From positions 186,001 to 250,000 of the forward strand of contig JAULBX010024405.1 of assembly GCA_032358255.1 (NCBI GenBank): a DNA stretch of 64,000 nucleotides, read 5' to 3'. Source of the stretch: Heterotrichella gracilis. Taxonomy: Eukaryota > Sar > Xanthophyceae > Tribonematales > Xanthonemataceae. How positions within the stretch are numbered: position 1 is the stretch's first letter; the number at the start of each line of letters is the position of its first letter. The position numbers and the translations under genes are program-made. Below the pieces are notes generated by a model. The model had not been told where the DNA came from, did no database searches, and saw only the letters and a list, made by a program, of their open reading frames with translations. This document shows, piece after piece, positions 304 through 63,715 of the stretch.

Positions 304-2376
304 GTGGTCCATCCCCAAGCTGGCCAAAACCTTCAAGATCCGGCAGCAGCGGGTGCTGGCCATCATCGGACTGATTGAGCTGGACAACCAGCGCATCGAG
401 GCCGGGGAGGTTCCCAACCGGGAGCTGAACGAGCACATGCACCTTGACCTGTGGGAGTGCATACACAGCCGGGGGAGCGGGGAGCGCCACGTGCGCAACC
501 TGCCCACACAGCCCAAGTTTGAGGTGAGACTGCCTTCCTGCGGCATGTAACTCCTGGTCAGTTAGTTGAACACGCACGTGTTGCTGGGTGGTGGTGTGCG
601 CAACCGGGAGCTGAAGCAGCACATGCATCTGGACTTGTAAGAGTGCATACACAGCAGGGGGAGCGGGGAGCGCTACGTGCGCAACCTGCCCACACAGTTC
701 AAGTTTGAGGTGGGTACCACTAGGGCGCATACACCACCTGGTTAGCCAAATACAAGCAGCGCATTGAGGCGGGTGATGTAGGGAACGAAAGCTGAACGAG
801 TGCACATGCATCTTGACATGTGGGAGTGCATACACAGCAGGGGGAGCGGGGAGCGCAACGTGCGCAACCTGCCCACACAGCCCAAGTTTGAGGTGGGCAC
901 TGCCTCCCTGGGGCATGTAACCGCTGAAACTTGGTCAGTTAGTTGAACACGCGCGTGTTGTTGGGTGGTGGTGTGCCCAACCGGGAGCTGAAGCAGCACA
1001 TACATCTGGACTTGTGGGAGTGCTTACATAGCAGGTGGAGCGGGGAGGGCACAAGCATGCAGCGCATTGAGGCGGGTGATGTACGAACTGAGAGCTGAAC
1101 GAGTGCACATGCATCTTGACATGTGGGAGTGCACACACAGCAGGACAGCGCAATGGGCGCAACCTGTCCACAGATCATAAGGTTAAAGTGGGACCGCCAG
1201 GGCGCAGCCACCTGCCATCTATCCCAGTTCACCCATCAGCACTCTATTCAGAGAAACATGAACACATGGGTGTGCACAGCTGCAAACATTATTTCTGGTG
1301 TCCTGGCGAGGATTTCACGAAACCCTAATCTAAACCCTCCCCGGCCAACAGCTGGTGGAGCCATCCACCCTTGGTGCGCAGGCCAAACCTAGCACCACAG
1401 TGATCAAGATTCCACTTCTAAACCCTAACCCTAAACCCTGCCTTGGGCGCAGCTGGTAAGCCATCCACGCTTGGCCCGATGCCAAGTATGGCACCACGGG
1501 AATGAAGATTCCACTTCTAAACCCTAATCCTACACCCTAATATGCACACAGCTGGTGGAGCCAACCATGACACCACAAATATGAAGATTTCATTTTTACA
1601 TCCTAACAATAAACCCTCCCTTGGCCGCAGCTGGTGGAGCCATCCACCCTTGGCCCGGATGCCAAGCCCGGGACTGCCGTGAGCGAGGTTGCGCACGTGG
1701 AGGACATCATTGCCAAGCAGGAGGAGGAGATGATGGTGGAGGAGTTCATGGCCAACCTGTCCTACAACATGGGATGGGTACGTGGGTGGTGCTTGCGCGG
1801 TTGTTGCAGTCCAGGTGTTTGGGAGAAAGACAGGGAACAGGCGTTCATGACGGTTGATCCGGGCCTGTTCTACGTGTACAGTTCTGTTTGAATTACCGCA
1901 ATGATCACATATCTGGTGTTCTTGTGGAATGTAAGCCATTGTGTAAGGTGTATCCACCTGCTGCCGCTGCTAGGGTTTAGGGTTAAGGTATCTTCCCTGT
2001 CATCAATTTTTTTTACCACGGCATGTGGCAGGGGACTTGGGGGGTGCCATCTATTCAACCAACGTTGCTGCATACTTTACATGTCTACGAATTTCAAATG
2101 AAGAAGAATAGAAAACAGTTGCAAAAGCACAAAAGTCATCCCTGTTTTCCTGTGCAGATCGGCAAGAGCATCCGGCGCGAGAGCCGCAAGAAGAAGCCCT
2201 GCCCCCGGCCCAAGGAGGGCTGGAGCCTGGTGGTGAAGCCCCTGGGCAGGAAGGCAAGCAAGGGGAAGGCAGACCCCTACGTGGCTAAGCCAGATGGCTC
2301 CATTCGGGAGCTGAACGACGATGAGAAGCTGTACCTGCAGCGCATGGTGCCCCGGCCCAGGAGGAAGATCCTGTGA
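304..2376 (+). CDS. Probable mitochondrial ribosome/regulator-type protein, 5'-partial (3 exons seen)
   Basis: Exons 304-523, 1631-1777 and 2158-2376 join in phase (220, 147 and 219 nt), giving 195 residues to a TGA at 2374-2376. The first exon starts with one base completing an upstream codon, so the N-terminus lies in an earlier exon I did not find. The segment WSIPKLAKTFKIRQQRVLAI resembles the helix-turn-helix-like core of the eukaryotic mitochondrial regulator family (Bot1/mS45, PF12298). A helical acidic stretch follows (EDIIAKQEEEMMVEEF), then a very basic C-terminus (SIRRESRKKK...RPRRKIL), as in many mitoribosomal proteins. That family call is an inference from pattern only. Each exon has decayed partial copies beside it. 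Confidence 0.6.
598..1190 (+). repeat. Four decayed echoes of the 304-523 exon 3' end
   Basis: At about 599-711, 769-894, 976-1050 and 1062-1190 the exon end encoding NRELNEHMHLDLWECIH...PKFE is repeated with substitutions, stops and frame breaks. The first two copies keep a GTGGG-type donor after the PKFE-equivalent codons. All lie in the intron downstream of the real donor at 524 and have the same orientation. Confidence 0.85.
1340..1582 (+). repeat. Three decayed echoes of the 1631-1777 exon 5' end
   Basis: Sequences at about 1348-1412, 1449-1510 and 1548-1580 repeat the start of the exon (LVEPSTLGPDAK) including the CAG acceptor. CCCTAAA motifs separate them. They lie upstream of the true acceptor at 1630, so they are candidate decoy 3' splice sites. 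Confidence 0.8.
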
Positions 2377-2394
2377 GACCCTAGGAGGGAAATA

Positions 2395-2570
2395 GCGGGA
2401 GCTGAATGAGGATGAGAAGCTGTACTTGCAGCGCATGGTGCCCCGCGCCAGGAGGATGATTCTGTGAGATGCTGGGAGGGAAATCCTGCGAGGTCATGCG
2501 GAGAAGGTCCTGTGCCTGCAGCGCATGGTGGCCCGGCCCAGGAGGAAGATCCTGTGGCACCTAGGAGGAA
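2395..2570 (+). repeat. Two echoes of the terminal exon of the 304-2376 gene
   Basis: About 2397-2465 repeats the codons for RELNDDEKLYLQRMVP through the stop. About 2512-2556 repeats the last part again (QRMVARPRRKIL). Both lie downstream of the genuine TGA and presumably fall in the 3' UTR or beyond. Confidence 0.85.
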
Positions 2571-4563
2571 CATTCTGCTTATCGTTTTGTGAAACCACCT
2601 CACCATTGTTCAAGCGCATAGGTTTCCAGCGTGTGCATTGTTGCTAAGTTGGGTTCATTACTGCATGCAATGTTGGCGACGAATGTAAGCACTAACCATT
2701 AGCTCAATTTCGGCATTGACCAATCACTGATGAACAAGACAGGGCAAGTCAAATGTACAGCTACTGATTGCCATTAGGTGCATCAGGTAACACTGATCAG
2801 TTACTGTATTCTGTACACTGTATACTGTAACAGCAGTATTGCCGCAATTTCTCATTAGTTAAATGATATACCCCATCTTGCCAACCGTGGTGGCGGCTTA
2901 ACGTCACAATGGTGCACGGCTGAATGTCACGATCCCATTCAACACCATCAAATTCATGGCTCAATATGATGGTGCCACTGACCACACGCTTCACCATGAT
3001 GGTATGTGGCCAGCCTGCTGGGTCAGATACTTCACCCAGCATACCTGTATCAGATGCGACCTGTGCCTGAAATACCATTATGTTGAACAGATATGATCAC
3101 CATAAAGCATCGCCGAGCACTAAGCCTTTGAGTGATAGGCGACATGCAGAATTGCCATTCAGCATCCTTCATTTGGCAGCAATATATTCGAGTGCTGCAT
3201 TTTATCATGCATGCCATACCCACTCCAATACAGGTAGATGCAATTCAGTTTTCCCGCTATGAGTGAAAGGGTTTTATTTTCTTTTTTTTCATTATTTCTT
3301 TCTTTCATGATAAGGCAAAAAGTATAACAATACCATAAAGTATATACAATGTATTACTGCACGCTGTGTACCAGTGGTAGCACCTTGAGCAGCATGCATA
3401 TCAGATGTGCGTGCATACAACAACACCATTTTAAGCAGGGAACTTTATCTGTCATCCTGCCCACGTTTAAGCATCAAAACCCCATGCCATATTGCCCAAC
3501 GATTGTCATTTGCACACGACACTCAATGTCAACATAACTAGGATGCTGGGTGGTGAGCAACTTGCTCAAGTTCATATTGTATATATTACCTGATATTGTC
3601 ATTTATTGTGTACCCAACACCATTGCCCACGTATGGCTTGCAATACATGTGCCGCTATGCATGCAGGTGTATAATCTGTAATGGAATTTTACCCAGTGTA
3701 TTGTCAACATGTCCTACTGTTTTGCTTACTACAAAAATGATATACCACACTCTAAGGCACCGTACTGTGCCACAGCACCCATGTCAAAACTTTCCTCCCC
3801 TTCTTGCACACTTTTTCATTGGTAACCAACATCATGCAAGTTCAGTAAGACAGTGCAAAACATCACTGGAGGGTGTGGATGGGTGGATGACGCACATGTA
3901 CGCTGTATCATCAGATCCAGCCTGCTGTAAAACACTACGGTACATACACCCAAACACAATTGTTGTTATTGTTTACTTGTGACGGAAACAGTCTCAACTG
4001 TTTGCTAAATCACTTTGCCACAGACAAATGAGCATGGGTACAACTCCCTTGTCACACTTCACTTTTACTGCAAAAATATCTTGTCACTTGCCGATTGACT
4101 CCACCCTTGTAGCCAGTCAGCTCAGCTACAGCAGCAATTGCCCAACCACCTGGACAACCATCTCATTCCGCCTGCTGGCACATGCCAACCCTCCTTGGTA
4201 CCATTGCTCACTCCGCATCACTGCTAGTCAGACTGGCATGAGTTGCATTGGAGATACCACGATTGACACAAACCCCACATCTCTTTACGCCCTTGTCTTC
4301 TTTCCTTCTACAGCACTGGCTGCTTACACCCTGCAAAGCGAACACAGCCTGTTGGTCTACATTCTCCATGGTTTTAGAACGGTATGAGTAATTATCACAA
4401 TTGTTGATTGGAATTTTCCCTGTAATACTAGTAGGCATAGCTTGCTGGTACCTATGTAACCTGTACAAGACCCAACATATTGCCAAGCTGCTCTGCCCTT
4501 AAGGGTGCCAGGCTACCCTAAACATTGACACAACATACCACCATGCTCCTGTCATGCCAACAC
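2571..4563. other. Intergenic, no supported gene
   Basis: Convergent intergenic space between the + strand gene ending at 2376 and the - strand gene ending at 4564. Short open frames (for example 3596-3982 +) show no recognisable motif, no splice-consistent extension and no conserved domain. I see nothing further. Confidence 0.6.
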
Positions 4564-11100: not shown

Positions 11101-14100
11101 GACATGTCCTCAGGCTCTGAGTCAGGGCACAGTAAACCTAGAGCTCAGCGATAAGGTTTTGGCTTTTTACGAGAGGCTCAGAGTGTCAATACCTGCGTAC
11201 CGCACCACCTACGTAGCCTTTCCCATGGGGATGGCTACGGCGCTGCCACCCTTGTAATTTTGTAATTTACTATCTACTTATCTGCCCTTTCCCACCTGGC
11301 CACAATTCGAGGATCCCGTGCGCTATCCACCTTTGCACATGCTACACCACTACGCTGTCCACCTTTACACATACTTTGTGGTTGGTCTGCACACAAACAA
11401 TGTACAGCTACATTTGGTGATGTGTGGTCATATTTGATCAAGTGTTATGATCATGGACCGCTTGTCAGACGGGGTTTGTAATGTGTATGTACCTGAAATC
11501 ACTTAATGAGGTGACGTATATCACGGGTCTTGAGGGGCAGTCCTGTTCACTGTGGAGCTCTGCCCACGCCATGTCCATCCCAGCAATGCATTCATGTGGA
11601 ACCCTTGACAAGGGAGTGAGTGAGTGTGCTCGCGCCTGTGCAGGGCTGGATGCGGCCGTCTCTTGCGCCAACCCAAGTAGCAACGTCATCAATGGTGCCA
11701 TTGGCCAGACCTTCACCCCGCTCAGCACCCTGGCCAACCTGAATGTGGACAAGATCGATGTGTGGATCAGGCCTAACGTGGTATTTTCGACCTCCTACAA
11801 GCTGGAGGTGCACCTCGACAGCCCTGGGGGGACCTTGTTGGCCACCTCAGAGCAGGTGGTTGTGACTTCCCGCCTCGTGACATCAAGCTCAGCGGCATGG
11901 TGCGTGATATGGGATATGGGTGCACGCGCAGGAGTCATGTACAGTCATCATACTATGTGGGTGATCCGCTGATGCATGATGTGGGATGTTGTACATGGTG
12001 CATGCGTCAGTGGTGCATCCATTGCATCACCGGTGAATAAGGTACGCTGCATACATTCTTCATGCTCAGCACTTGAAGGATAGAAGGCCCTTGTCATTAG
12101 ACAACTAGCAGCCACAGACGCAGGCAGTGCCGAGGCTGGAAACCTCAAGCGAAACAAGGTGTGTACAAAGTCGAGTCCAGAGTGCAGCGTACCAAATTCA
12201 ACCCTCAATAGCGCCATCGGTACGTGCAGGGTGTCTTTCACCATAGTCGGCACGTCTGCCCCCATACACGCTGGCCAGGTGTATGCGTGGAATGTGGTGA
12301 TTACATCACCCTTCAGCGGTGACTTCTCCTCCTGTTTCACGTTTGGAAGCAGCTCAGAGCCAGCCAATGCTTATATGTTCAGGCTGTGGACCAAAGTGCT
12401 AATTCTAAGCCCGCCACCCCTGCCGCCATCGCCACCATTACCACCTTCCCCCCCACCTTCAACAGGTGAGCCATCTCCACTCTCTCTGTTTGTCTTGTGA
12501 ATAGTTCTGTACCCTGAGCGACGTCGGGGATGGGGTTGGTCCCCGCCCGTTCCATGACCACGAGTAGGTGACCTGCACCAGCCTGCACCTTCTGCCGCCA
12601 TGCTCTACCCTAGTCTTTAAAGTTTTGGAATAATGTCCTCACCCACTTTCCCCCATCCCACCTGTGCCACCACTCTATCGGCCATCACCACCATCACCAC
12701 CGTATGCTCCATCATTGTTCCTTCTAGCAGGAAGGACCACCTTCCTCCCTTGTCATGCTGTCGTTGACTTTGTGGTGGTTAGCGCCTCTAGGGATTGCCG
12801 CCTGCACTGGTGCATCCCCATCAGAGTTGGCATAAAATTGGGTTTAGGGTTTAAGGTTTAGGGTTTATGGTGGTTAGCGCCTAGATTACCGCCTGCACTG
12901 GTGCATCCCCATCAGAGTTGGCATAAAATTGAGGGGTTGAGATCTTTGGACACACAGCCCGTTACTATACGTTGTTGCTCTAACTAGTTACTTTACCCTC
13001 ACTCAATGTGCTTGCCAACTTTTAGTTGCTACATTGCACGTCTTGGGCATGTATTATCAAAGGTGGTAGTTCAAAACTGCCACGCCACTGCTGACATGGC
13101 ACCCATTTACCAGGCCTCAGGGGGGGGGGGAAATAGGGGAAATAAATGCCATATGCCCGCACTCGTGTGAATCCCCATCACACTTTCAGTAAGAAACCTT
13201 TTTGCCTGGCCATGTGCACCGAATCCTGCAATAACCTAAGGATAGGGGTGTATTTATCCCTTCCCAACGCCAGGATACATATAACCCTATCCTTACCCCA
13301 AGCAGTGACATGCAAACTCTGTGCCTTGACACCACAGCCACAGACCAAATGTGTGTGTACGCCTGTGTAGGGTTGGATGTGGTCGTGTCCTGCCCCACCG
13401 CCACCCTAAACCCTAAACCCTAAACCCTGATACAGACTGTGTGTGTGTACGCCTGTGCAGGGTTGGATGTGGTCGTGTCCTGCCCCTACGTTCGTGGACC
13501 CTTCTTAGGGGACAGTACAAACGACCTTCGTGATTTAATTGGCCAGAGCTTCACCCCGCTCAGCAACCTGGCCAACCTGTATGTGGACAAGATCGATGTG
13601 CGGATCCAGCCCAACACGCAGTACACCACCTTCTACATGTTGAAGCTGTTCCTCGACATGCCTGGAGGGACCCTGGTGGCCACCTCGGGGGTGGTGGATG
13701 TGAGCCCTTCATCTCCCAGCGGATGGTGCGTGGGGCATGCACTGATGCATGTACAGTGCCAACTATGATGCCCCAATGTGCTATCCAAGGTTGCATGCTG
13801 TCGGATGTTGTACATGTAGTAATTGTGGCTTTCAAGGGATGGCCGTGTTTAGTGAACACAGGGAATCAAACAGGGCATGCAAGATACAGATTGTCCTTGC
13901 CATTCCACATTCTGGGCAGCTATAAAAGGCGTTGGAGCCTAGAGGATTGTCCTAATAGATCAACAAATGCATGTGAACCCCTGACAACGCCATCCACATG
14001 CTTGCAGGGTGTCTTTCACCTTTGCCGGCACCTCCGCCCCCATCTACGCTGGCCAGGAGTATGCCTGGCTGCTGGTGAAGACATCCGCCTCAGGCTTCAA

Positions 14101-19561: not shown

Positions 19562-22500
19562 CTAGCCTGTGTTGCGCATGCCTGCCGAGATCCCGTTGAT
19601 GGAAATGAGCAGCGCATCCCTCAGCCTCTCGTTGCCTGGGTCAAGGCGCAGGCGGCGCAGGATCTCAACCTGCAAGGGGATAGGGTTTAGGGATAAGGGT
19701 CTATGGTGGTGGTGGTGTCCAGGGGAAGGACGGGGTTTTGGCGCAGGTGGCAAAGGATGTCCACCTGCCCAATGAAATGGGGCACAGGGTTAGGGTTTAA
19801 GGTGGGGTGATGAGCAGCGCGTCCCGCAGCCACTTTGTTGCCTGGATCAAGGCGCATGCGGCGCAGGATCTCAACCTACGGGGTTTAGGGTTTAGGGTTT
19901 AGGCCCTAGGCTAAGGCAAGGCACGGCACAAAGGCAAGACACGCACGGCAGTCTGCTAAACTCTCTCGCTAGGAACACACGTCACTTAACTACCATATAC
20001 TGCAGCACACATAGCTAGATTTGACCACAGTACTCTCAGCGCACACCAATGTGGGCATCTGGAGGATGGTGATTGAGTCCATGGGAGGGCTCATGGGTTC
20101 AGGCATGGCCTAGACAGTTTAGGATCCAGGGTTGAGGAATTAGGGTTACGAAGTTATGCTCCAGGAGTTAGGGTTCAGCCAAGGCCAAGACAGTTTAGGG
20201 TTCAGGGTCAGGGTCTAGAGCCACTCGAAGGGTGTTCATTGGGTTTATGAGGGGCTGTGCGCAGCATTTGAGCTCAGCAATGTCCTAGACAGTTTAGGAT
20301 TCCAGGTTTAGGGTTTTGGGGTTTGGAGCCGCACCTGGAGGATGTTGATTGGGTCTATGTGTGGGCTGCGCGTGGCGATGAGCTTGCTCAGCGAATGGTT
20401 GTTCTCAATCAGGTGGTGGTGGCCAGTCACCTGCGGCGCAGGCGGGGAGGCAGTTTCAACTGGGAATTTGAGACATAAACTGAAAGCTACAAGGGGTGTT
20501 TTGTGGTTGCCCCAGCACACCATCATACATGTCAAGCCGTCCCACCCACCCACCTGCAGCACCGCATCCACCGCGGTGAAGTACTTTGCCCTGATGGCCT
20601 CGCCCAGCTGCTTCTCCTGAGAATCAGCCACCCACCCATCACCGTACAGCCTGCATCACCCCCACCCGCCCCAACTCCACCCACTTCCAAACCCCACCCC
20701 CCACGTTAAAAACACACAGAATAATTGCACCCTGCAAAGCCCCACCTGCAGCACCGCGTCCACCGCGGTGTAGTACTTTGCCCTGATGGCCTCGCCCAGC
20801 TGCTTCTCCTGGGGGTCCACCACCAGCACATCGTCGTACAGGCTGGCTATGCGCATGTCGCACTTTGCCAGGATCATCTCCACCAGGTCGATGGTGGACT
20901 GGAAGAAGGGCCAGGAGGCGTACATCTGGCGCAGCATGGGGCCGTGGCCCTGCGGGGGTGGGGAAAATGTGAGGGATAAGCGGAAATGTGGGCACTTCTG
21001 CTTGGGCAGGTGTGATTGTATTCTGTGTGGGGCCGTGGCCCTGTGGAGGGCGGGGGCGGCAAATTTGTGGTTGTTTGAATGAGGCCCCATCCCCCAGCAC
21101 CATGCCCCCTGTCAGCATCGACTACCCCCATCCCCACCAAACCCAACCCCTCCTCCTTCACCCCCACCCCCACCCCCACCTGCAAACAGCTGGTGGAAGG
21201 CGCCCCCCTCGCTCACCCCTGCAAACAACCCCACCCCTCACCCCCCACCTGTGCAACACCCCCCTCACCCTCCACACCCCCCACCACCTTTGCAAACAGC
21301 TGTTGGAAGGCGCCCCCCACCCCCAGCCACGCCGGCATGATCATGCGCGTCTGGGACCACGCGAAAATCCAGGGGATGGCGCGCAGCGTCTCCACACCCC
21401 CGCCCTTCTTGCGCCTGGCAGGCCGGGAGCCAATGTTGAGGTTGACCAGCTCCTCCTCGGGTGTTGCGTGGCGGAAATAGCTGACGAAGAGGGGGTGCTC
21501 GTATACCAGCTGCAAGGGTAGGGTTGGGGTGGGGGTGAGAGGTGGGTGGTGCATGCCAGAACGCCACTTGGTCCCTATAGGTGTTGCCTTCAACCCTACA
21601 CAGCCCCATGCCCCCTCAACCCACCCTCTCTGTATGCCTTGCAGGACAGCTGCGACATCTGGTCCCAGCGGGAGCGCATGAACCCCTGCTGTTTCCACCA
21701 AAACCCTACCGATTTTGCCCTGAATCCTGCTGCTTCCACCAAAACCCTACTGTTGTTACCCACCTCTCTGTATGCCTTGCAGGACAGCTGCGAGATCTGG
21801 TCCATGAGGCCGCGCCACTCGGGCTGCATTGCGGGCGCGGGGGGGCGCAGGGTGCCGTGCAGCACTGCGGTCAGGTAGACCTCCAGCTGGCGCTGCGCCA
21901 CCGCGCCGATGCCAAACTTCTGCTGCACCATCTCGCCTGCGGGGAGAAAAAGGGTGAATTTCGACGTTTGTGGGTTGGCATCGGTGCAGGGGTGTGTGTA
22001 TGCACCACAGCAAACAGGTAGACCTCCAGCTGGCCCTGCGCCACAGCGCCAATGCAACATCTCGCCCCAAACCCTGACCACCTGCATGCTGAGCCCCAAA
22101 ACCCCACTTACCCTGCTCGGTGAAGCGCAGCGAGCCCGCGATCGACCCAGGAGGCTGCGACTGCGCACTGCCTTGAACATGGGCCCAAAACCCTAAAACC
22201 CTAAAATGGCACCAAACCCTAAACCCTAACATCCCACCCACCTTGCTCTGTGATGCGCAGCGAGCCCGCGATTGATCCCGGAGGCTGCGACTGCACCGCC
22301 TTGAACATGGGCCCGCCCCCGCGCCCCACCGTCCCTCCCCGCCCATGGAACAGCGTCAGCTGCACACCCGCGTCTTGGCAGACCTGTAGGACAGGAGAGA
22401 GGGGGTTTTCATTCAGTCCCAAGGTACCTATGCAATTCGAGGCTGTGAGGCCCTGGGACGGTGTGTATGCGAGCAGGAGTACGCAAGTTGGCATAACCAA

Positions 22501-25500
22501 AACCCTAGAAAACCCTCACCTGCACGAGGTCCTCTTGGGCCTTGTAAAGCGCCCACGCAGCTGCCAGCCTCCCCGCGTCCTTGCCGCTGTCGCTGTATCC
22601 CAGCATAACCTCCTGCTGGTCCCCGTGGACCTCCCTGCGGGGAGCACGGTAAAAGGCTTGCGTGGATGGTGGAGCGAGGAGGTACTGGGCTTGTCATATA
22701 CGTGGATTGAACATATTGAACGACTTGTCCTTTTGCTGCTTTCTCCGTCAGGGTTAGGGTGTGCGGTCAATTTTGAACATGCCCCACGTCCTTGCCGCTG
22801 TGGCTTTTGAGCATTAAATGCACATGGTGCCCATGGTGTTACCAAAGCTTTGGGTCAGAAAACCTTAAATGTTTAATTTTTGGCCTCACCTCAGGTGCTG
22901 CCTGTACCATGGGATGCTGAACAGCTGCGTCATGATCGCGCCAGCTGCCTCCAGATCCGCCAGGGTCTCAAACAGGGGCACCACGCGCAGCGAGCGCCAG
23001 GACTCGCCCGTGTCACCCGCAACCTGCAAGGGGGGTAAGGGGAGGGGTAAGCACCCCAGCTAGTGTGGACCATGCTACATGTCACCTTTCCGGACTGATC
23101 TGGCACCTGAAGTGGGAGGGAGATAGAAGAGGGGAGGAGGTGGTCAAAACCCGCATCTCTTACAGGTGCAGGATGAAAAAAATGCCAGATGTTCACAACG
23201 TATATGAAGGCCCTCCCTTCTACAGCAGGCCCACCGCCGGCACTGGCCAACAAAGATGATGCACCTGGTCGTTACCAAACCCTAATCAACACCCTAGCCA
23301 GCCCGATCAGCCTTCCCACGTTTACCCTGCCCATCCCCCTTTTCAAACCCCTCCCACGCACCGCTATGCGCGCCTCCTTCTGCAGCAGTTCCACTGCAAG
23401 CACGTCCGATGCCGCGTTAGTCATTGATATGACGTACGCCCCCAGGCTGCGCTGGCCCAGCTGCGCACCCAGCTGGAAGGTGTCCATCACCTCGCGCACC
23501 TGAAACAACATAAATAAAATAATTAAATAATTCAAGACAGGAGTACATGAGGGGTGAGGTGAGGGGGAATCCTGTGAGTAGTGAGAAAATAAATCTAATG
23601 GTACCCGATTTATAGAGACTAGTATGCATTTTTTGGGGGAGTTGCCATGACCCCCAGGCTGCGCTGCCCCAGCTGGGCACCTAGCTGGAAGGTGCCCATC
23701 ACCTCACGCACCTGAAACAAAGGGGATTAAATAAAGACAGGAGTACCCTGGGGGGGAAATATTGTGAGTTAAGAAGAAAGTGAACTAATAGTACCCTTAA
23801 TAAGCCTAGCATGCATTTTTGTTAGGGGAATACACGGGGAGTGGGGTGTGTGGATTGATGGTAGGTCAGTGAAATAGTAAACTAACGGTATCCGTTGAAT
23901 CAAGACTGGTACGCATTTTTTGGGAAGTAACCATATTATATTGTCAATGGACCCAGGCTGCGCTGGTCCAGCAGGGCACCCAGCTGGAAGGTGTCCATCA
24001 CCTTGCGCACCTGAACACACAAGCGTACATGTCGACAGATTTGGTGTTAAACCATGACACCAACTGGCCTCTTTCCTCCCCTCTGGGGTGAGCAATGGAG
24101 AGGTGAGGGAAGTGGCCAGTTGGTGTCATGGTTTAACACTGGGCATGCTCTCACTGACCAGTGGCCTTCGTGACGCCAGCTATGCCTTTCAACAGGCACG
24201 GCTGGAAACAGCCCAAAATCACATAGCATGCAGCTATTGGGGTATTGTGGCAATATTAGAGTTGTGTTGCGATCCTGCAATACCCAAGCCTCATGCACGA
24301 AACTAGGTTACCCAGTTTCTCACCTCTGGGCTGAGGGGCATGCTCTCGCTGACCAGTGGCCTGCGTGACGCCAGCTCCTGCTGCAGCCATGCCATGCGCT
24401 GATCCTCGGACCACTCAGAGTAAGAACCGAGCTCCAGGTAGCTGCAGAGAGAGAGGGAAATACGGTTTGTTTTGGGTGGTACATCCAGGATTTATTGAGT
24501 GAGCAGAGCAGGATGGAACCAGGGAGGTTTGTTTGTACCCCATGCATATGGCGGGTGTAGGATTCGGTGATGCCAGCTCCTGCTGCAGCCATGCCATGCG
24601 CTGATCTTAAGACCACTCGGCATAAGAGCGAAGCTCAAGATAGCTGCAGGCAAGGTGGAATGAGTGAGTAAGTAAGACCCCGTCCCTTCCAATGTATGCC
24701 TGTACCTGAGGGAAGAGGGTGGGTGTTTTGTACCCTTCCACATGTAGGGTTTCGGGTTTCGACGCCAGCTCCTGCTGCAGCCACACCAATTCCAACTTCT
24801 TCAAACACAGCAGTGCAGTGCGGGTGGCGCAGCAATTCAGCCGGCGCCAACTGGCCACTATCCTCCCCACACAAAAGACGCACCTCAGTGATGCCCCGGA
24901 AAGCAGTAATTAAAAACCCTTCCCACCCACCTGGTGATGGCGGTGAGCGCCTCTGTGTGCCTCGGCGCCTCCTGCCTCAGATCCAGCTTCATCAGACAAA
25001 GCCCAAAGCAGTGCAGGCGCCTCAGCAGATCCAGCAGGCGCCCCTCTGCCACAATCCCGCTCCCGCAGGCCCACAGGCTGTGGTAGCATGCAAGCAGGGG
25101 GCGCAGCAGCTGATCCTCGTTATCGTAACCTTCCTCCCCTGGCTGGGCGGGGGTGATGACGCCCGACAGCTGGTCCTCCATGCGCCGCTTGGTGTTGAGC
25201 AGCTTCTGGCGCATCTGAGGGTGGAGGCGAGGACCACTTTAGGGTATGGCCTAGAGGCTGGTGCAGGATTCTGCAGGGTTTTACAACCAGGGTATTACTC
25301 CCAAGTAGTGTATCTCCACTCACCTCCCCCAGCACAACCCTGTACACTAGGGCGTGGGCCCCTTGTGGTTGCGCGGGTTGAGCACCTGGTCCATCTTGGC
25401 AAGGGTTTCAGGTAGGGTTTCCTTTGTTCCCAATACTACTCACAGTAGGGATTAATTTTAACAAAAAATCGACCAAGATCCCCCCCCGCCAAATCAAGGG

Positions 25501-41938: not shown

Positions 41939-44900
41939 ATGAATTTGGGACCAAGGGGGGGCAACCCTGTCCCCTCCGCTGTCGCTAGCCTCCTTGCCAC
42001 ATGCCTAGTCAAGGGGAGGCCCCTCTGCAGCAAGGCCCTCAGAAACTCGCTAAATGCCGCGCATCTCAGGGGTTTTTCGGGAGCCGCGTGGGGGGCGCAA
42101 GGGGGGGGCGCAATGGGGAGGAGGTTGACGGGTGCGGGAGTGCGCAGGTAAGGGAGGGGAGGAGAGCGCTAGGGTTTTGAGCAGCATCGATGGGGTTTTT
42201 GGTGCTTGCAATTATCTTCATTCCTGCCTGTCCATAAACCAGCAAGGTGTGTTGACAATGTACTAATGTAGGAGTAAGCATAGAGAGCTGCCATGACAGC
42301 TTCACAAATGTCCAGGTGGGGTGCATACGCTGAGAGTGGTAACCTAGGCAAATTAAAATCATTGATCTGTGAAAACATTGTGTGTTTTCAAGGAGCCTTT
42401 CATGTACATAAAAACGTGTAAAATCAGCCTACTATTTTACGAATCTTGGGCCACATGTATGCACACTCGTTTTCCACAATGCGTGCCCTGTTAGGGATGT
42501 TCAATATCCCCATCGGATGGGGATATTGGTGCACAGCCAGGGTGCACAGCAGCATCTCATGTGGTATCTACCTTATGCTTGCAGGTTCCATCGAGGCATA
42601 GTCATGCAGTCTGCTGCTGGATCTGCAGAGGAGGGGGCCAAGGCTGCCGGAAAGAGCCTGTGGGAGAACATCGCCCGCTTTGTGAAAACCAGGTACGTTT
42701 TAGAGGCCCCGGGGTGTGTGGGGGATGGAGTGTGTGGGGGGGGCCGGGGATGGGGGGTAACAATGCAATGCCTTTTCGACGGTGGTGATCATCATGTGAT
42801 TGTAGATATGATCACCACCGGTGGAAAAGCATTGTATTGTCACCCCCCCACGCACACTGGATTAAATCAAAGCCTGTTAGCAAACAAGCGAGTACCAGGC
42901 AGGGCAGCAACAATCATTTATGCATGCCATTCGGACGTCAACTGGGGCTTTCTGCCACCAATCCCCTCACACATTTTTGGTGCAGGTGACTGGGGCCTAG
43001 ATGCTGCATACAAGGCATAGAAATTACGTTCACGCACATGCCGTGCATGCCATGCCTGGATTGAGCCAAATATGGCGGTATCGGTTCTGAAAAAGTGGAC
43101 TAGGTTGATTTGTGTTTTCCTCTGCCAGGGCTTGCATTTGCAAGCACCACAATGGTGTTGCAGGAAAGGCCAGCCATGGCAGATGACAACGAAATCAGCT
43201 TGAGCCACACAATCAGAACCAATACTGCCACGTTTGGCTCAATCCAGGCATGGCATGCGTGAAAATAATCACTATCAGGAATGTGAATAGGGTTGCGAGG
43301 CCAGGAGACCTGTTACTATCACATTCGTCAGAATTAAAAGCGTCCATCAAGGTTTCGCTGCTGATGCTGCAGGCGGACAAATGCTTGCACAAAACCCATC
43401 CTGCGTACAAAAACTTGCACAAATCACTCCTGTACAAAACAACAAACATCCTGGTCAACCAGAATTCGACAAGAAACGGTTCAATCCCCAATCCCCGCAG
43501 GTACCAGCTGCTGCTGCTGGGGACTCTGGGCCTGGCGGTTATTGGAACAGGTAAATACAAATCAGACTAAACGCGCTGCAGCAGGTAGAAATTGTAGCAA
43601 CTGCAATTTTGATTATTTATGAAGGCCTTAGAATTGTGCTGCAATGCCGATAGCAGCCCGGGACGTTCTTGAAGCTTGTGCAATCCTGTAGTCTTGATTT
43701 CATCATCAGCAACATTTCATGCTCAGGGGTCCTGCAGAAGGTCCCTACATCAACTTCAACAATATCTTCCTCCACAGGCGGCCCGCCCTACATTATCAAT
43801 TTTCACTCCCAACAGGCGTACACTTGCAAAACCCCAATTCCTTGTCTCACATCAAGCAATACTGTCACTCTGATGTCCCTCATACTTATAAGCCTTGTAG
43901 ACAGAGTTGCCATGAACCGCTGTTGCTGACTTTGTATCCCTTCCACAGGCGCCTCGCCTTATGTTGAGAAGTTCTACCGGCACCAGGTGTACAAGCGCGT
44001 GAGCACAGGCTTTGGGCCAGACCCTGGCAAGGGTTTGGTGGGGCGCCGCGCCACCAAGGACTACATCAAGAGCGTGGTGTTCAGCGGGGAGGAGGTGAGG
44101 ATTGCTTTAGGGTGTAGGGTTTAGGGTTTAGGGTTTAGGGTTTGTCCATGGTCGCGCCACCATGGATTACATCAAGAGCGTGGTGTTCAGTGGGGAAGAG
44201 GTAAGAACTGCGCAGGGTTTAGGGTTTGAGGTGTAGGGTTTGGTAGGGCGTTGCGCCACCCAGGACTACATCAAGAGTGTGGTGTTCAGCGGGGAGGAGG
44301 TGAGGACTGCTCAATTCTTGGTGGGCTCGGCGCCCCACCAGAGCCTAAACCTCAAATCCTAAATCCTAGGGTCTAGGTTTAGCTTAACCCTATATCAAGA
44401 GCGTGGTGTTCAGTGGGGAGGAGGTGAGGACTGGTTTAGGGATTGGGGTGTAAGGTTTAGGGTTTGTGCATTGTCACGCCACCAAGGATTACATCGAGAG
44501 CGTGGTGTTCAGTGGCAAGGAGGTTAAGGGCTGTTTATGATTTAGGGTTTAGGGTTTATGCACTGCTGGGCCACAAGGACTACATTAAGGGTGTGGTTTT
44601 CAGCGGGGAGGAGGCGAGGACCCTACCATTTTTACGGGAGAAATCCTGAATTGTCAACCCTGAACCCTAAACCCTGTGGAAACCCATATCCCTGTGAAAG
44701 TAGTGGTAAAGGCAGTCGAGAACGCGCTTAGGGCACCTCTCAAAAGTTTGTTACTTGTGATTCTCAGACTCCTGAAGCCCTGAGGATCTACTCATGTTTC
44801 TCATGCTCCCGCCTTTTCCCCCTGTGTCCAGGTTTCCCCCTTCTACTACGTCATCACCGGGCCACGGGATGGAGGCAAGTCGTTCATGCTGCAGCAGGTG

Positions 44901-47900
44901 CGGTGGAGAACCTTACTTAAACTCTTAAGCTGTAAACGCTTAATAGTCACTTGCGCTCCAGCTGGTGCGCAGGGAGCTGGGGTCTGGGAAGTTCAAGTCT
45001 AGCCAAATTGCATGCTGCTTATTGGGCGTGAATAATGACCCAGCTGGATTTGATCGTATTGGGATCCGGGTAGGCATGGATTCGGATGGTAGTGGATTAC
45101 GTTGGTTTAGGGTTTAGGGTCAAGATTGCCATGGCCAGTCAGCTCTGTACGCTGCACTTTTGAGCACACCATGCATGTTCATTCTCGCAAATTTTCAATT
45201 TCACAAATTCTCATTTGCACAATGCTCACCAACCTTATGCTCACTTGATATGCGCAGATCTACAAGGCAAGGCCATGGGCTACCTACACGAGCCCGCCAT
45301 GCCCGAGATAGTGTGGATTTGATGCCCCCAACCCCGTATTGCTTGCAGGCTTGCGTAATTTAATACCGTTCAATGGGCTCCTCAGTTTCTGTGCATTCAA
45401 CGTCAATCCTGACCCTCCCATCCTGCGCAGATTTGCAAGGAGGTGGGTGAGGGCGTGGGCTACCTGCATGTACCCGCCATGCCCGAGATAGGGTTTGGCA
45501 TTGCCCTAGGGGGGGCGATCAACTTCCGCCAGGAGGAGCACAAAAAGGTGGTCAACCTGGTCACCCAGCTGGGCATGGGGGGGCAAAAAGTGGCAGGTGC
45601 GCTTCAAGTAGCATTCAACACATTTTCTAGATTGGTTGGTTTGGTGCTCAGGTTGGGTCACAATATGGGGAGAAACTTTTGAGTTGTGGTTACGGGGCTA
45701 TGATGTCCAAAAAGGTGGTCAATCTGTCATTCAGCTGGGCATCCATGGTCGGGCAAAAGGTGGCAGCTGCATTCCATCACGCCACATCAAGCATGCCTTG
45801 GATCGGATCGGTGATGAAGGAGTGCTTGCAGGAAGGAGGATACGATAATCAATTGCCTCCCACCTGGGGTGAGGAGCTGCCTGCCAAAAAGCAACATCTA
45901 TGAACAAATGTTGGTCATCCCTCCCGCAGGCAGTTCCTCCCCTCACCTTGAGCAGCTGGACAAGGCCTGCCGCGCTCTGGAGCAGGCGGGGCAGCGGTAC
46001 AAAGCCGAGCACAACCGCCCATTTGTGCTTGTCATCGATGATACTGATAGGCTGAGGGAGCACGACGCGAGGGCACTGGAGGCGCTGCAGGTGGGGTGGT
46101 GGTGGCGGTGGTGCTGGTGCTGGTGGTGTAGGCGGCATGATGGAGGCGCTGTAGGTGGTGGTGGGTGATAGGAGGGGTGGACACCTGGGGCCTTGTCCAT
46201 CATTTCTGCCATAGCCTACACAAGATAAGGTGGATTTTTATTTTGTGCCCCCATCAATGCATTGCCGCAGGACATTGCTCATATTTGACCCAAGTCCTAG
46301 ATCATCACCACGGTGTTTCTGTCATACCCTACACTAGGGTTTTGAACATGCGCTGATCCACTCACATGCGCATGCAGGACCTTGCGCGTGACTGGGCCAA
46401 GTCCCAGATCATCACCACCGTATTTGTGGTCAGCGAGCACGAGACGCAGAAGAAGCTGCAGGGTAACGGAGTAGGGTCTAGGGTCTATGATATTTGGTCT
46501 AGGGTTTGTAGGGTGCAGGGTGTGTGGTCAGCGAGCACGAGACGCAGGAGAAGCTACAGGGTAAGGGTTTAGGGTTCAGGGCTTCGGGTTTGTGGTCAGC
46601 GAGCCTGAGACGCAGAAGAAGCTGCAAGGTAAGTCGGGCAGCTTCCCCTGTCACCAAGTGTATATCATCATGTATACAGTACCCCATGTCCACAGGGATA
46701 TGATGCTTTGAACAAGAACGATCAGGGGGTACTCCCCAATGCTATGACATGGGCAAACGGACAATTTGTGGAACGTAAACTGAACAACTTATGTTTCCTC
46801 TCTTCAGAGCGCCCTGCGTGGAGCCGCGCCTACGAGCCTGTGCTGCGCATCGACGAGCTGAATGATGAAGATGCCACCACCTTCCTGGTCAACAGCGGGC
46901 TGGACCTTGACCTCGCAAAGAAGGTGCGACATGTGCACTGTCTCCAAAAAAACTAAACCCTAAATCTTTACACCCTAAACCCTAGCTGAATGATGAGGAT
47001 GCCACCACCTTCCTGGTCAACAGCGGGTTGGATCCCAACCTGGCAAAAAGGGTAGGCTATGTGCACAGTCTCCAAAAACCCTAAACTCTAAACTCAGACC
47101 CTGACGAGCGGCGTGATCCCCAAGCTAACGCAAAAGGTAGGCCATGTGCACTGTTCACAAAAACTCTAATTATTAACCTCGGACCCAAAACAGCGGCGTG
47201 ATCCCCAAGCTATAGCTAGCTATGATAGCGGAGTAGATGTGGCATGTGCCCTGCTCTCTCCAAAAACCCTAAACCCTAACCCTGAGGCTCTAAACAGCGG
47301 CTTGATCCCTAAGCTAGCGGAGCAGATGTGGCATGTGCACTGCTTTCTCCAAAAACTATAAACCCTAAACATCAGACCCTAATCAGCCGGCTATAAACAT
47401 TCGGCTGGACCCTAAGCCAGCGGAGCTTGTGCGTCATGTGCACTGCATCCTCCGAGTACCTTAGACCCTCACCTCAGACCCTCGTCAGCGAGCAATGTGT
47501 CACAATCACAGTGTATATAGCTTGCATCGTAGGAGTTGTGGCGCGCAGGCTTGTTGTGCTCTCAGCAGGCTTGCTGTGCTCTGAGTCAGCGGAAGAGACT
47601 GTCGGTTCCATTGGTGCACAGCCTGTGTGTGTGTAAAGGCTGCCCGCGGATGTCTGCCCGCCGCGCATGCCCGTGTGTGTCTGCCCGCTGCTCATGCCCG
47701 TGCGCTTTTGCCATGTGTGGTTAATCCATGTCTTGCCCATGTGTGTCTGCAGGTGGCTGGCGTGGCAGGCGGGCGGTTCCAGCGGCTGCAGAAGTGCGTG
47801 CTCCTGCTGGGCAGGGGAAAGACCTTCCCGGGTGAGGATATGCAGTTTGATTAAAACTGAGAATTATATCTATGTGCTTACATGTTGTTTTTGATGCATG

Positions 47901-54309: not shown

Positions 54310-54315
54310 ATTGTC

Positions 54316-54320: not shown

Positions 54321-54809
54321 CCCATTTTGCCCTAGGCGAGGATACTTCTTTTGCCTTATTGGGCGGGCTTCCTCAGTGGATGGCGTCAACTCAAACCAGG
54401 AGCCAATGTCTCATACACAAGAGCTGGTGAAGTAGCTTGCAAGGTGGCTGATGCCCCAAGTCAGTGCGTGCCCACCCAATATTACCGCCTACAAATACCG
54501 CTTGGCGTGACTTGTGACCACGGCAGGCTTAAACATGCCGGCAAGCGCTATCCCCTGATTCGTCAAAGACAGGTTGGTCCCACACCAACTGAGTACTCCC
54601 TGGCAAACACACCTTCAATTGTACCCTTACCCCTCTGGGTATTGCAATAGGCCACCAAAGCTGCTCCAGCAATTGCACCGCAGACAGTTCCCTCCCTTGG
54701 TTCTAGCAGGACAGCTAGAAAGAAGAAGAAAGAAAGGGTCCGCAAAAGTTGGCTACACTAGCAGTCACGCTAAGCGACACCAAGCAGGCCTAGCATGTCA
54801 CCATTTACA

Positions 54810-54926
54810 GCGTTTGTTGTCCTTGCTAGACCGCATGCCCTGACCCTAATATGTAACCCTAAACCCTTACAACTTTTGTCGTTCTTGCAGGACCGGAGCC
54901 CCTAATCTTAAACTAACCCTAAACCC
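54810..54926 (-). repeat. Echoes of the TMEM186-like gene's terminal exon
   Basis: Two or three short copies of GTTTGTTGTTNTTGCAGGACCG...GCCC separated by CCCTAAACCCTTAC units, repeating the last ~20 codons and stop of the adjacent exon. Confidence 0.8.
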
Positions 54927-57097: not shown

Positions 57098-57596
57098 CGT
57101 CGCTGTAACGTCGAGCCCAGTACTGGCAAGTGGCACACCAGTTATTTTGTTGCGTGTTTTGATACTGGCGTGACAACCTGAACACCGCTTTGCACTGGTG
57201 GGTCACTGCTTGAAAAAGGTTCCAAAACCAGGTGTCCCGGGGATTACTGAAATCGATAATCCTCATAATTAAAGTCAAACCGCTGGAAAAAAGACCACAA
57301 AAGCCTGTTTGAAACCAGAATGGGTGCAAACATCGCTGTCTTTTGCAGTATTCGCGCGTGTTCACTGCAAGCCTCGAGTTTCAGTCGCTGCTTGGAGTGT
57401 AAGAACCTTTGTGCTACAGTTGTGCAACGGGATACGAGCGTCATCGTGGTGTATAGAAACCACCCCAAACCAAATATTGTGTAGCTAGTGGGCTTTAGCT
57501 CTCCAGGCTCCTCTAATAAGGCTGTTTGGTATAAGTTCTGAAACGTGGGTTGGTTCTTTTAAACATTTCTGCCAGCACACGGACTCGGGAGTTGCA
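57098..57596. promoter_or_regulatory. Shared divergent upstream region (TMEM186-like / SPC25)
   Basis: The 499-bp interval between two divergent start codons must hold both promoters; no TATA-like or other element stands out. Confidence 0.5.
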
Positions 57597-60634: not shown

Positions 60635-63506
60635 CTACTTTGGGCCCGAGGTATCATTATCCCCCTTGCCACTCAGCAGCCCAACTTGGCTCATCCCTGA
60701 GGCGCCTGAGTTGATTTGAGTTGAGCCCCCTGTGTGGTTCGCAGTGTTGGCCGTGTTGATCCCATCCCCTCCCGTTGCAGTCATACCGCTTCCACCCCTG
60801 CGCATGGCAAGGAGATACATGAACAACTATCTAAGCACAGGTGAGTTGAGTTTATTTAGGTACTTTTGTCTTTCAGTCTCTCTACAAAACACATTGATAT
60901 CTTGACAGGCGAGTTCATAAATACGAGGACTATGCTGCTACGTAAGAAATCCGGACTACAATTACTAGAAGTTCCACTGTGTCTCCATTTTCCCTACCTG
61001 AGCATGCCATTCTCCATGAGAAAGAGTAATCTTGCAAAAACCTTGAAAATTCCATGGAGGTAAATTCATCATCTAGAGTTTATCCCCCCCAAAATGAGGG
61101 GGGGAATCGCAAGTTTAGATGTCTCCCCTACCTGAGCATGCCGGTCCCCATCATGAAGGAGCTTGCCACCGAGGTGTTTGAGCTGGCGCGGGTGGCGTAG
61201 GTTGACAGGGACTGCAGGGCAGCCACCACCTCCTTGCTATTGGGGCGCTGGGCAGGGTCCTCGGAGAGGCAGGCGGAGACAAGCGCAGCCACCTCGGGGG
61301 GGCAGTCCTCACCAGCCCTGCGCCGATGGTGGTTAAGCTTAATTTTAATTTTTGCAATGCATAGGTTATAGGTGCTTGTGGCCGTGGCGAGGCCAGTGTG
61401 AAGGTTTAGGTAGGGTTTTCGATAGGGTTTGGGCAGGGTTTGGGCAGGGTCCTCGGAGAGACAGGCGGAGACAAGGGCGGCCACCTCGGGGGGGCAGTCC
61501 TCGCCAGCCCTGCGCAGATGGTAGTTTTCAATTAAAAATTGAGTTTTGTTTTGGTCTGGGTAGGGTTTTGGGTAGGGTTTTGGGCAGGGTCCTCGGACAG
61601 GCAGGCGGAGACAAGGGCAGGCACCTCTGGGGGGCAGTCGTCACCAGCCCTGCATGGGCAATAAGGTTATTGTTAGGGTTCTGTTGAGAGCTTCTCGAAA
61701 CTCACCTCAGCGCGCGCAGCATGCCCCGTTTGGGAACCTCATGGGTGCTGCGCTCAAACAGCACCACCCCGATCCCATAGATGTCAACTTCTCCACTGCA
61801 AGGGCTCTCTACCCACCAACCCCACCCACTGGAGCCATCAATTTACAGGGCATTTACCCCCAGAAAAGGGCATTTCCCCAGCCACCAACCCCCGAAACTC
61901 ACCTCAGAGCGCGCAGCATGCCCCGCTTGGGCACCTCATGGGCGCTCAACTCGAACAGCACCACCCAATCCCGTGGATGTCGACCTCCTCGCTGCAGGGT
62001 CCCAAAACTACCAACCCTTACACCACTGAAACCACCATTAAATGACTATCTCACCCCCAAATAATACGTGTACTTCCTCCAGCACACCAGCTCGCACCTC
62101 AGCGCGCGCAGCATGCCCCGCTTGGGCACCTCGTGGGTGCTGAGTTCAAACAGCACCACCCCAATGCCGTAGATGTCAACCTTCTCGCTGCAGGGCTTGT
62201 TGAGCAGCAGCTCGGGTGCGGCCCACGCAAAGGTGCCGGTGAACTGCATGGAGGTGATGAAGTCCTTGGTGGGGAGCATGGTGGCCCAGCCCACGTCGCC
62301 AACCTGCAGGGAATGACGGATTATCATTAGAACATTGTCAGAAATCAAGAGGATGACTAGATTGAGACTAAAAAAGCTTGGGGTTTGGAGGTGCCGGTGA
62401 ACTGCATGGAGGTGATGAAGTCCTTGGTGGGGAGCATGGTGGCCCAGCCCACGTCGCCAACCTGCGGGAAATGACGGGGTTATCATAAAATATCACTAAC
62501 CCAACGGCGCCAACCTGCGAGATATGAGGGTGGTCTGGGGAATTGGGAAAGCAAAGTAGCAACAGGACATGGTGGGCGAGTTGCCGACCAACGCACACCT
62601 GTGAACCCTACTCCAACTATCGGCGAGGTGCCCTTTGCTGCATAAGTGGCTGATGCATGGTGGGTTTCACATGTGCCTCACCTTTGCGGTGCCATCCTTT
62701 GCCAGGAAGATGTTTGGCGACTTGATGTCAAAGTGCACGATGCGCTGCGTGTGCAGGAAGTTGACACCCTTGGCCAGGTCCAGGGCGATGCGCTGGTTCA
62801 CAGACGCCTTCTTGCCCTTGCTGCAGGGGGGATATAAAGCGGGTGAGCAAGGGGCGACCCAGCAGGAGGACTAGAATAGTCCTATTTCTAGTCCTCGAAG
62901 ACCCCGGCTAGGTTTCTATGCGCAAAGAAACCCGAAGGAAGGAGGGAGGAGCAACATGACATATGGGGCTAGGGGTCACTCAAGGTGGGTCCCAAGTGAA
63001 ATAGGGGTTTGAGGGCAACCCTCTAGGGTTTCAAAGCAGGGTATTGGAGCCACTCACGGTATGTCCCAGGTAAATTTGCGCATGTTCTTGCTCTGCAGCT
63101 GGTTGAGCTCATCACCTCCCTCCATGAACTCGGTCACCATCATGGTGTTATCCCGGGTGACACAGGCGCCCATTGGGGCGGGCGAATTAGGGTTTGAAGA
63201 GCAATGCTGTAGGGTTTTACATCAGGGTTTGGGGCTAGGGAAAACTCACGGAATGTCCCAGGTGAACTTGCGCCGCGCCTCGCTCTGCAGCTGGTTGAAC
63301 AGGTCGCCCCCCTCCATAAACTCGGTGACCATCATGGTGTTATCTGGGGTCACGCAGGCGCCCATGAAGCGCACGATGTTGGGGTGGTGGCAGCTCTTCA
63401 GCACCGCAATCTCCTTGAGCAGCTCCTGGCGCATGCCCGCAGACGAATCCTTGAGCACCTTGACCGCGACCACGTCCACGCCGCCATTGGTGGTGGCCTT
63501 GTACAC
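60635..63506 (-). CDS. TKL-type protein kinase, 5'-partial
   Basis: Exons 63506-63250, 62820-62682, 62303-62098, 61317-61132 and 60797-60635 join in phase: 316 residues plus TAG at 60635. The visible part begins at VYKATTNGG, just after the glycine-rich loop, so upstream exons lie beyond the window or were not found. Seen: VAIK-type Lys in VVAVKVLKD (16), alpha-C Glu in LLKEIAVLK, HHPNIVRFMGAC, MMVTEFMEGGDL; catalytic loop VHFDIKSPN (Arg of HRD replaced by Phe); activation-segment start GDVGW (Phe of DFG replaced by Val); WAAPE; VDIYGIGVVLFEL; PAQRPNSKEV. The C-terminus is Gly/Ser/Thr-rich. This matches Raf/CTR1-like kinases of green algae. The exon at 61132-61317 also reads into an in-frame TAG 4 nt past its end, so an alternative terminus at 61128 is possible. 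Confidence 0.88.
60995..61025 (-). repeat. Echo of kinase exon 61132-61317 3' end
   Basis: CTACCTGAGCATGCC recurs about 135 bp downstream, repeating the exon's last codons and donor. Confidence 0.7.
61400..61655 (-). repeat. Two echoes of kinase exon 61132-61317 5' half
   Basis: At about 61436-61518 and 61575-61652 the codons for AGEDCPPEVAALVSACLSED recur with acceptors, separated by GGTAGGGTTTTNGG runs. Both lie upstream of the real exon. Confidence 0.9.
61695..62000 (-). repeat. Two echoes of kinase exon 62098-62303 3' half
   Basis: About 61701-61800 and 61903-61995 repeat VDIYGIGVVLFE...HEVPKRGMLRAL and a GTGAGT donor. They lie downstream of the real donor at 62097. The same exon's 5' half is echoed upstream at 62385-62467. 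Confidence 0.92.
63055..63180 (-). repeat. Echo of kinase exon 63250-63506 3' half
   Basis: Repeats the codons for TPDNTMMVTEFMEGGDLFNQLQ...WDIP downstream of the exon, with substitutions. Confidence 0.92.
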
Positions 63507-63595
63507 CTGTGGGGAGGAGAGGGGCGATGTTGAAGGACTGGCATTTTTTAGGCATTTTAGGGGCCATTGTTTGGCATTTTGGGGGCTATTTTCAA

Positions 63596-63715
63596 AGCTT
63601 TTGAGCACCGCAATCTCCTTGAGCAGCTCCTGGCGCATGCCCTCAGACGAGTCCTTGAGCACCTTGACCACAACCACGTCCACGCCGCCATTGGTGGTGG
63701 CCTTGTACACCTGGT
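63596..63715 (-). repeat. Echo of kinase exon 63250-63506 5' half
   Basis: VYKATTNGGVDVV-VKVLKDSS-GMRQELLKEIAVLKS is repeated almost perfectly upstream of the exon, with its own CACCAG acceptor. With the 63055-63180 copy it brackets the exon. Confidence 0.92.

Follow-up and report, generated by a model that had tools for sequence, protein, structure and literature searches.

We examined a 64,000-nucleotide stretch of the genome of the xanthophycean alga Heterotrichella gracilis (GenBank assembly GCA_032358255.1, contig JAULBX010024405.1, positions 186,001 to 250,000 of the forward strand; hereafter the window, C244:186001-250000), in which the edges of exons are repeated as decayed, partial, direct copies, here called echoes, in the adjoining introns. 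Copies of 3' edges lie downstream of the intact exon and copies of 5' edges upstream, the two copies are usually separated by filler that is often of the telomere type CCCTAAA/TTTAGGG, and such direct local copies occur widely in the assembly. The feature is real, widespread and unusual, and it is best read as a set of break-repair scars with telomere capture; we consider it probable that exon-edge copies are scars of DNA-break repair in which filler, often telomere-type, was captured. An original prediction, made from the sequence of the window, had described the copies, their splice sites and their polarity; it had missed the telomere-type filler between copies, and the excess of exon edges over a neutral model of uniform duplication goes beyond it.

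The assembly comprises 68.5 Mb in 903 contigs, and the wider sample consisted of 27 sequences (299 kb, 23 contigs), a subset of which (217.6 kb) was classed as alga-like. The class was assigned partly by telomere density, which makes the split partly circular, and unsplit totals are therefore given too. Comparison of the window with itself by BLAST (E up to 1e-3) returned 89 direct and 4 inverted matches, 83 and 1 of them within 3 kb, so that the decayed direct copies of exon edges are real. Within the same distance, 234 direct versus 7 inverted matches were found in the wider sample, and 219 versus 6 in the alga-like set. At least three near direct matches were present in the samples of 12 of the 23 contigs, and the copies are thus not peculiar to the window. 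Near matches of the alga-like set had a median offset of 178 nt, aligned length of 74 nt, spacer of 83 nt and identity of 84%, and the offsets of pairs peaked near 80-120 and 180-220 nt (106 pairs). A spacer of 20-300 nt lay between the copies in 146 of the 219 near matches; abutting copies with little or no filler were not the norm (spacer below 5 nt in 15% of pairs). Identity between copies was graded from about 67 to 100% with no break, the youngest pair found being 62 nt of identical sequence (L020:1108-1169 and 1323-1384), and spacers read among young pairs varied from locus to locus. The duplication process looks recent and repeated.

Some contigs have a GC content near 35%, and this mixed composition would suit an explanation of the copies as artefacts of assembly. 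The samples of contigs C1 (L008) and C100 (L011) have 36% and 35% GC and hold 0 and 1 direct pairs, respectively, from which we conclude that DNA of other organisms is probably present in the assembly. That the copies themselves are artefacts is scarcely credible, because their divergence is graded, from identity to about 30%, and these two low-GC samples (20 kb) together hold a single direct pair; the copies are also spread over many contigs, with spacers that differ between loci.

Gene models in the window covered one gene without its first exons, PEPC-A, and two exons of a second gene, encoding a kinase; in the modelled genes the exons are short and the introns GT-AG. PEPC-A was modelled by hand as 16 exons in one uninterrupted frame (817 aa), in agreement, exon by exon, with Pfam PEPcase matches. 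A second PEPC gene, PEPC-B, was modelled on contig C866 by spliced alignment, and the limits of one of its exons were corrected by hand (69589-69846); the same aligner found 16 exons in PEPC-A, with limits not all equal to the hand-made ones. Copies were sought on the direct strand only (E up to 1e-4). Every exon-derived copy lay in the adjoining intron (16 of 16 in PEPC-A and 13 of 13 in PEPC-B, 29 of 29 in total), and in 28 of the 29 the copied half of the exon, judged by midpoint, faced that intron, 5' halves being copied upstream and 3' halves downstream. The sole central copy, of nt 53-75 of the 118-nt exon 7, was located upstream. All 29 copies were partial, which agrees with the view that these are not whole-exon duplications; three copies of the first PEPC-B exon (C866:64980-65532), which are outside the 29 counted, may be whole. 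Twelve pairs were aligned, 10 of which paired an exon with an echo across its junction, and AG or GT was kept in all 10 of these echoes. The claim that the copies include splice sites therefore stands for these junction-spanning echoes; it fails for others, such as 27057-27142 and 24141-24181, which stop 15 and 12 nt before the exon end and lack the donor. The three exons said to be bracketed by echoes on both sides (27184-27368, 62098-62303 and 63250-63506) were confirmed base by base.

Polarity was also determined independently of gene models, by using codon usage to locate coding sequence beyond the aligned part of 105 non-overlapping pairs. Coding sequence extended upstream of the left copy in 26 pairs and downstream of the right copy in 22, as compared to 1 downstream of the left copy and 0 upstream of the right; 36 pairs had no extension and 20 scored too low. 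Thus, 48 pairs had the predicted polarity and 1 the other, whereas random placements gave 12.0% versus 8.4% (1050 placements: 5.7% upstream of left, 6.3% downstream of right, 4.0% downstream of left and 4.4% upstream of right). The copies are side-biased, and the fixed polarity is real. It is, however, no separate rule, since tandem duplication across a junction, with the intact exon staying in use, must give it by geometry and survival. In this respect the proposal of repeated tandem duplication across exon-intron junctions needs amending; the duplications are local, direct and partial, they lengthen introns and they leave decoy splice sites, as it had stated. The geometry of copying leaves the exon-edge excess, and the tendency of copies to end near splice sites, unexplained.

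Two further origins were rejected. Intron gain by AGGT tandem duplication would not account for PEPC-A copies that never reach the far splice site, 5'-edge copies beginning at least 84 nt behind the donor and 3'-edge copies finishing at least 107 nt before the acceptor. If a complete exon copy had been inserted where an exon was broken, the upstream and downstream echoes would be complementary; in six bracketed exons the echo parts instead have overlaps of 8 and 12 nt or are 26-69 nt apart, as independent events would give. The start of exon 8 has two upstream echoes both in PEPC-A (exon 23362-23499) and in its PEPC-B homologue (C866:69589-69846), which may reflect chance, a hot spot or the preservation of an old array in both genes. 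PEPC-A intron 8 (window 23024-23361) is absent from PEPC-B, whose exon reads through at this place, and therefore intron gain or loss separates the paralogues. Spacers are homologous within arrays in PEPC-B (69219-69674) and at PEPC-A exon 8, which indicates that these arrays arose by later amplification, and in some multi-copy arrays the unit takes in long stretches of intron.

The window holds 78 scattered telomere-type blocks (659 and 1024 bases, as compared to 90 and 31 in the reversed sequence). CCCTAAA/TTTAGGG is a terminal repeat in the assembly: perfect 8-unit arrays occur on 11 contigs (none with a reversed-pattern control), and on 6 of the 11 the array lies at most 140 bases from the contig start in CCCTAAA orientation. 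These contigs may not all be this organism's; C70, for one, carries an array and has no pair in its 10-kb sample (L027). Around 126 non-overlapping pairs, telomere-like bases made up 14.2% of the sequence immediately inside the pair (non-overlapping windows of at most 40 nt) and 2.3% of that immediately outside (windows of equal size), a ratio of 6.1, and at least 7 such bases were found inside in 41 pairs and outside in 14. With overlapping windows, in which spacers below 80 nt are partly counted twice, the totals were 1525 and 229 bases (6.7-fold). Telomere-like sequence was present in 55 of the 146 spacers of 20-300 nt, as compared to 18.2 expected at random positions. Spacers account for 6.7% of the alga-like set, and 68 of its 241 telomere-like blocks lay mostly in a spacer and 55 mostly in a copy. 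At PEPC-A exon 3, a telomere-type repeat (27142-27162) immediately precedes the downstream echo. The presence of such filler between copies points to break repair.

The position of the filler also bears on the possibility that exon ends were copied from RNA, by reverse transcription of pre-mRNA, or by polymerase-theta templated insertion, and placed elsewhere in the intron. Such a process would suit copy ends that tend to fall near splice sites and copies that end inside the exon. Telomeric filler, in contrast, lies between the copies and is far scarcer on their far side, which suggests that the target was duplicated and not that a copy was inserted, and near matches are direct and rarely inverted, with all 29 PEPC copies confined to the adjoining intron. 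We therefore regard copying from RNA or by templated insertion as improbable. A transposable element, or an introner, that makes long target-site duplications would likewise yield an insert with direct repeats on both sides. When three fillers were searched against the genome, two matched only themselves and one had a single partial second match of 82%, and spacer length is highly variable, so that a mobile element is very improbable; an introner origin was rejected on the ground that these fillers are not repeated in the genome.

Orientation of the filler differed between the two types of edge (Fisher P 0.0026). Read in gene sense, all 9 repeat-bearing fillers in 5'-edge pairs (30 pairs) were CCCTAAA, while in 3'-edge pairs (42 pairs) 9 were TTTAGGG and 5 CCCTAAA; untyped pairs (17) had 5 and 2. 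The same scan found no filler with both orientations. Because TTTAG is acceptor-like and CTAA branch-point-like, selection on splicing and priming by telomerase explain this orientation equally well: splicing would favour the orientation that yields sequence like a branch point over one like an acceptor, or telomerase would prime on the G-rich strand at each splice site. In 27 PEPC introns, a small sample, telomere-like sequence reached 6-9% within 60 nt behind donors as compared to 0.6-2.5% in mid-intron, and no TTTAGGG-sense sequence was found within 60 nt of the acceptor.

A staggered break near a splice site could produce this arrangement. The cut in one strand would lie in the intron, a few to some tens of bases from the junction, and that in the other strand in the exon, in most cases 40-115 nt from it; fill-in of both overhangs would then double the overhang, duplicating 40-130 nt, and filler, often CCCTAAA/TTTAGGG repeat, would be captured between the ends before they were joined. 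The product would have the order exon piece, filler, exon piece. Survivors would be those that keep an intact exon spliced, leaving the second copy in the intron, downstream for 3' edges and upstream for 5' edges, and later exchange between copies may have given the arrays. What the sequences show directly is that the copies are direct and local, have a fixed polarity, enclose filler and occur widely; that breaks are staggered, which enzymes fill them in and why exon edges should be preferred are inferences. Candidates for the last are exon-phased nucleosomes, RNA-DNA hybrids and splice-site 3' ends whose G-richness makes them good substrates for telomerase or the CST complex. Simple extension of both break ends by telomerase is unsupported in that form, the copy edges being without the strand order expected of it.

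To assess the preference for exon edges, we used a neutral simulation in which duplications of 45-135 nt with filler fell uniformly in PEPC-A and everything except constrained exon decayed, indels included; 636 of 700 events were kept, and the 64 that fell inside an exon or held a whole exon or two exons were dropped. At identities of at least 91%, 86-91% and 80-86%, exon-derived pairs made up 32, 43 and 38% of the simulated pairs detected, and pairs with at most 15 nt of intron 33, 37 and 32%. In PEPC-A and PEPC-B, exon-derived pairs numbered 18 of 21 (P 7e-5 when compared with 43%, although pairs of one array are not independent), and 11 of 18 had at most 15 nt of intron (P about 0.03 against 37%). 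Among 30 young pairs (identity at least 91%), an estimated 79-96% were exon-derived, depending on the threshold. Of copies with at least 90% identity, 33% had a donor motif in their final 20 nt, as compared to 8-12% in bins further inside; for older copies the figures were 19% and 7-14%. Acceptor motifs had a weak, broad excess only. Young pairs were also read by eye (28 listed of 30), a reading in which the choice of donor favours a GT near the edge; the motif counts and the PEPC pair counts above are objective counterparts of it.

Uniform tandem duplication could nevertheless produce an apparent preference by ascertainment, if duplications with filler fall anywhere and those that touch an exon stay visible for longer. 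It would need geometry alone for the polarity, and arrays in PEPC-B do take in long intron stretches. Exon-derived sequence in echoes also diverges more slowly than spacers, with 20 of 148 as compared to 39 of 157 positions substituted between two echoes in two families (C866:69226-69588 and window 23575-24010), both parts of which should be free of selection. With exon-derived parts thus changing at about half the rate of spacers, the excess at exon edges is in part a matter of ease of detection, and this difference counts against a pure preference for edges. Neutral echoes fit the codon-position pattern as well. Among the 12 PEPC copies with an identity of 91% or more, differences at first, second and third positions numbered 4, 5 and 23, suggesting constraint. 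In 29 young pairs they numbered 22, 19 and 53; older pairs had a third-position share of 0.48-0.54, and the larger sample as a whole 0.48-0.56, as compared to a neutral expectation, beside a synonymously evolving exon, estimated at about 0.46. Selection or conversion keeping echoes alive was accordingly dropped as an explanation. The uniform model, however, predicts that 32-43% of pairs are exon-derived and 32-37% have at most 15 nt of intron, below the shares observed in the PEPC genes, and even with slower exon divergence the exon-derived share would perhaps rise to 46-58%, still below that observed. We consider uniform duplication without targeting unlikely, if a serious alternative, and exon-edge targeting likely, not proven.

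Several other observations weigh against break repair at exon edges with telomere capture. The samples of 11 of the 23 contigs hold fewer than three near matches. In the pairs with known exon limits, the tendency to short intron parts is no more than moderate (the 11 of 18 pairs above). Most fillers, all but the 55 counted above, contain no recognisable telomere repeat, and of the 241 telomere-like blocks 118 belong to no pair that was detected. The strand order at copy edges that simple telomerase extension of break ends would leave was not seen, and echoes that end inside the exon would need later truncation after one clean tandem duplication. That exon edges are the preferred targets of an ongoing break-and-duplicate process, with breaks concentrated at splice junctions, fill-in and capture of telomere repeats, so that introns grow from their ends and splicing has to distinguish real sites from near-identical decoys, is a tentative reading, for which the case falls a little short of even.

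Natural tandem duplications in rice and paired nicks in plants are reportedly subjects of earlier work. Small tandem duplications at breaks with 3' overhangs depend on Pol alpha-primase guided by CST, the telomere fill-in complex (PMC8355091); like our copies they are direct and local, for the most part no longer than about 100 bp, and explained by overhang fill-in, whereas the spacer of 20-300 nt, the telomere-type enrichment and the exon-edge excess set the alga apart. In the horse, telomeric repeats inserted at breaks were flanked by a direct duplication at 3 of 66 loci, with a more complex change at 2 more, and staggered breaks were blamed (PMC7215372). Those interstitial sequences share with ours an internal telomere-type repeat, a flanking duplication from a staggered break and random extra sequence; unlike them, 68 of 241 telomere-like blocks here sit between copies, and the repeats are short, decayed and absent from most events. 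Short direct repeats (mean 11.4 bp) shared by both borders of one intron have been read as scars of intron insertion (PMC11782384), and these too are direct, near exon-intron borders and attributed to error-prone break repair. In contrast, our copies are 40-130 nt long, derive from one edge and sit inside the adjoining intron, mostly with that edge's own splice site, which argues that the intron was there first. Introners, known from algae, also add intron sequence by insertion (PMC9860276); here the three fillers searched belong to no repeat family, the duplication is far above 3-9 bp and no new intron results. The statement that no described system resembles this one is thus partly right: duplication at staggered breaks and telomeric insertion with flanking duplication are described (PMC8355091, PMC7215372). 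A search of titles and abstract openings, in a library that lacks most subscription journals, found no report combining this density, telomeric filler and exon-edge bias.

The coordinates of echoes and arrays in the window are listed in Table 1.

Table 1. Exons, echoes and arrays mapped in the window (window positions)
Feature	Position	Strand	Basis or remark
PEPC-A gene, 16 mapped exons, 15 introns	19562..28356	-	Pfam PEPcase; exons beyond 28356 (upstream) unmapped
PEPC-A exon 3, intact, bracketed	27184..27368	-	gene model
Exon 3 upstream echo: acceptor TGCAG and exon nt 1-92	27490..27586	-	92.8% identity
Exon 3 downstream echo: nt 85-170 of 185, without donor	27057..27142	-	alignment
Exon 5 end and donor, downstream echo	25321..25401	-	87.7%
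Exon 7 start and acceptor, upstream echo	24567..24649	-	85.5%
Exon 7 nt 66-106 of 118, downstream echo without donor	24141..24181	-	95.1%
Exon 8 start and acceptor, upstream echo 1	23952..24015	-	93.8%
Exon 8 start and acceptor, upstream echo 2; unit includes about 134 nt of intron	23651..23720	-	
Exon 11 end and donor, downstream echo; adjoins telomere-type sequence 22183-22231	22094..22186	-	
Exon 12 nt 25-79, upstream echo	22001..22055	-	
Exon 12 end and donor, downstream echo	21619..21665	-	95.7%
Exon 13 end and donor, downstream echo	21152..21208	-	85.0%
Exon 14 end and donor, downstream echo	20549..20653	-	87.6%
Exon 16 start and acceptor, upstream echo	19810..19903	-	85.3%
Kinase exon, bracketed	62098..62303	-	Pfam kinase
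Upstream echo of kinase exon 62098-62303; exon part identical, about 25 nt of intron common	62389..62486	-	
Downstream echo a, end and donor of kinase exon 62098-62303	61893..62037	-	
Downstream echo b, end and donor of kinase exon 62098-62303	61696..61840	-	
Kinase exon, bracketed	63250..63506	-	
Upstream echo of kinase exon 63250-63506	63596..63730	-	92.6%
Downstream echo of kinase exon 63250-63506	63052..63173	-	
Three-copy array of one kinase exon start, telomere-type spacer	61249..61653	-	
Array, units of about 186 nt	384..1212	unassigned (.)	self-comparison
Array, 91-nt units; donor-like GTGAGA inside	2305..2578	+	by eye
Array, exon end and donor, TTTAGGG-type spacers	44030..44621	+	
Array, exon end and donor, TTTAGGG-type spacer	46423..46633	+	
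Acceptor and exon start copied	13350..13486	+	by eye; 97.9%; telomere-type filler 13401-13431

Two regions of the window contain repeats of other kinds. Between 9788 and 14089, three copies of a gene or domain about 1.84 kb apart (9793-10029, 11632-11865 and 13538-13703) contain proline-rich stretches, as algal cell-wall proteins do. An in-frame coding repeat of 15, 30 or 45 nt and PSPKPP type at 9022-9185 looks exonic, unlike the other arrays.

If this reading is correct, the genome would hold a natural record of intron lengthening: duplications densely packed within a single genome and spanning a range of ages, their identities running from about 67 to 100%. Many of them would place a decoy splice site no more than a few hundred bases from the true one. 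Two questions would thereby become testable, namely what directs breaks to splice junctions and how the spliceosome selects one of two nearly identical sites. The growth of introns would also be tied to telomere repeats, and perhaps to the machinery that fills in telomeres. The preference for exon edges is the part most worth testing.

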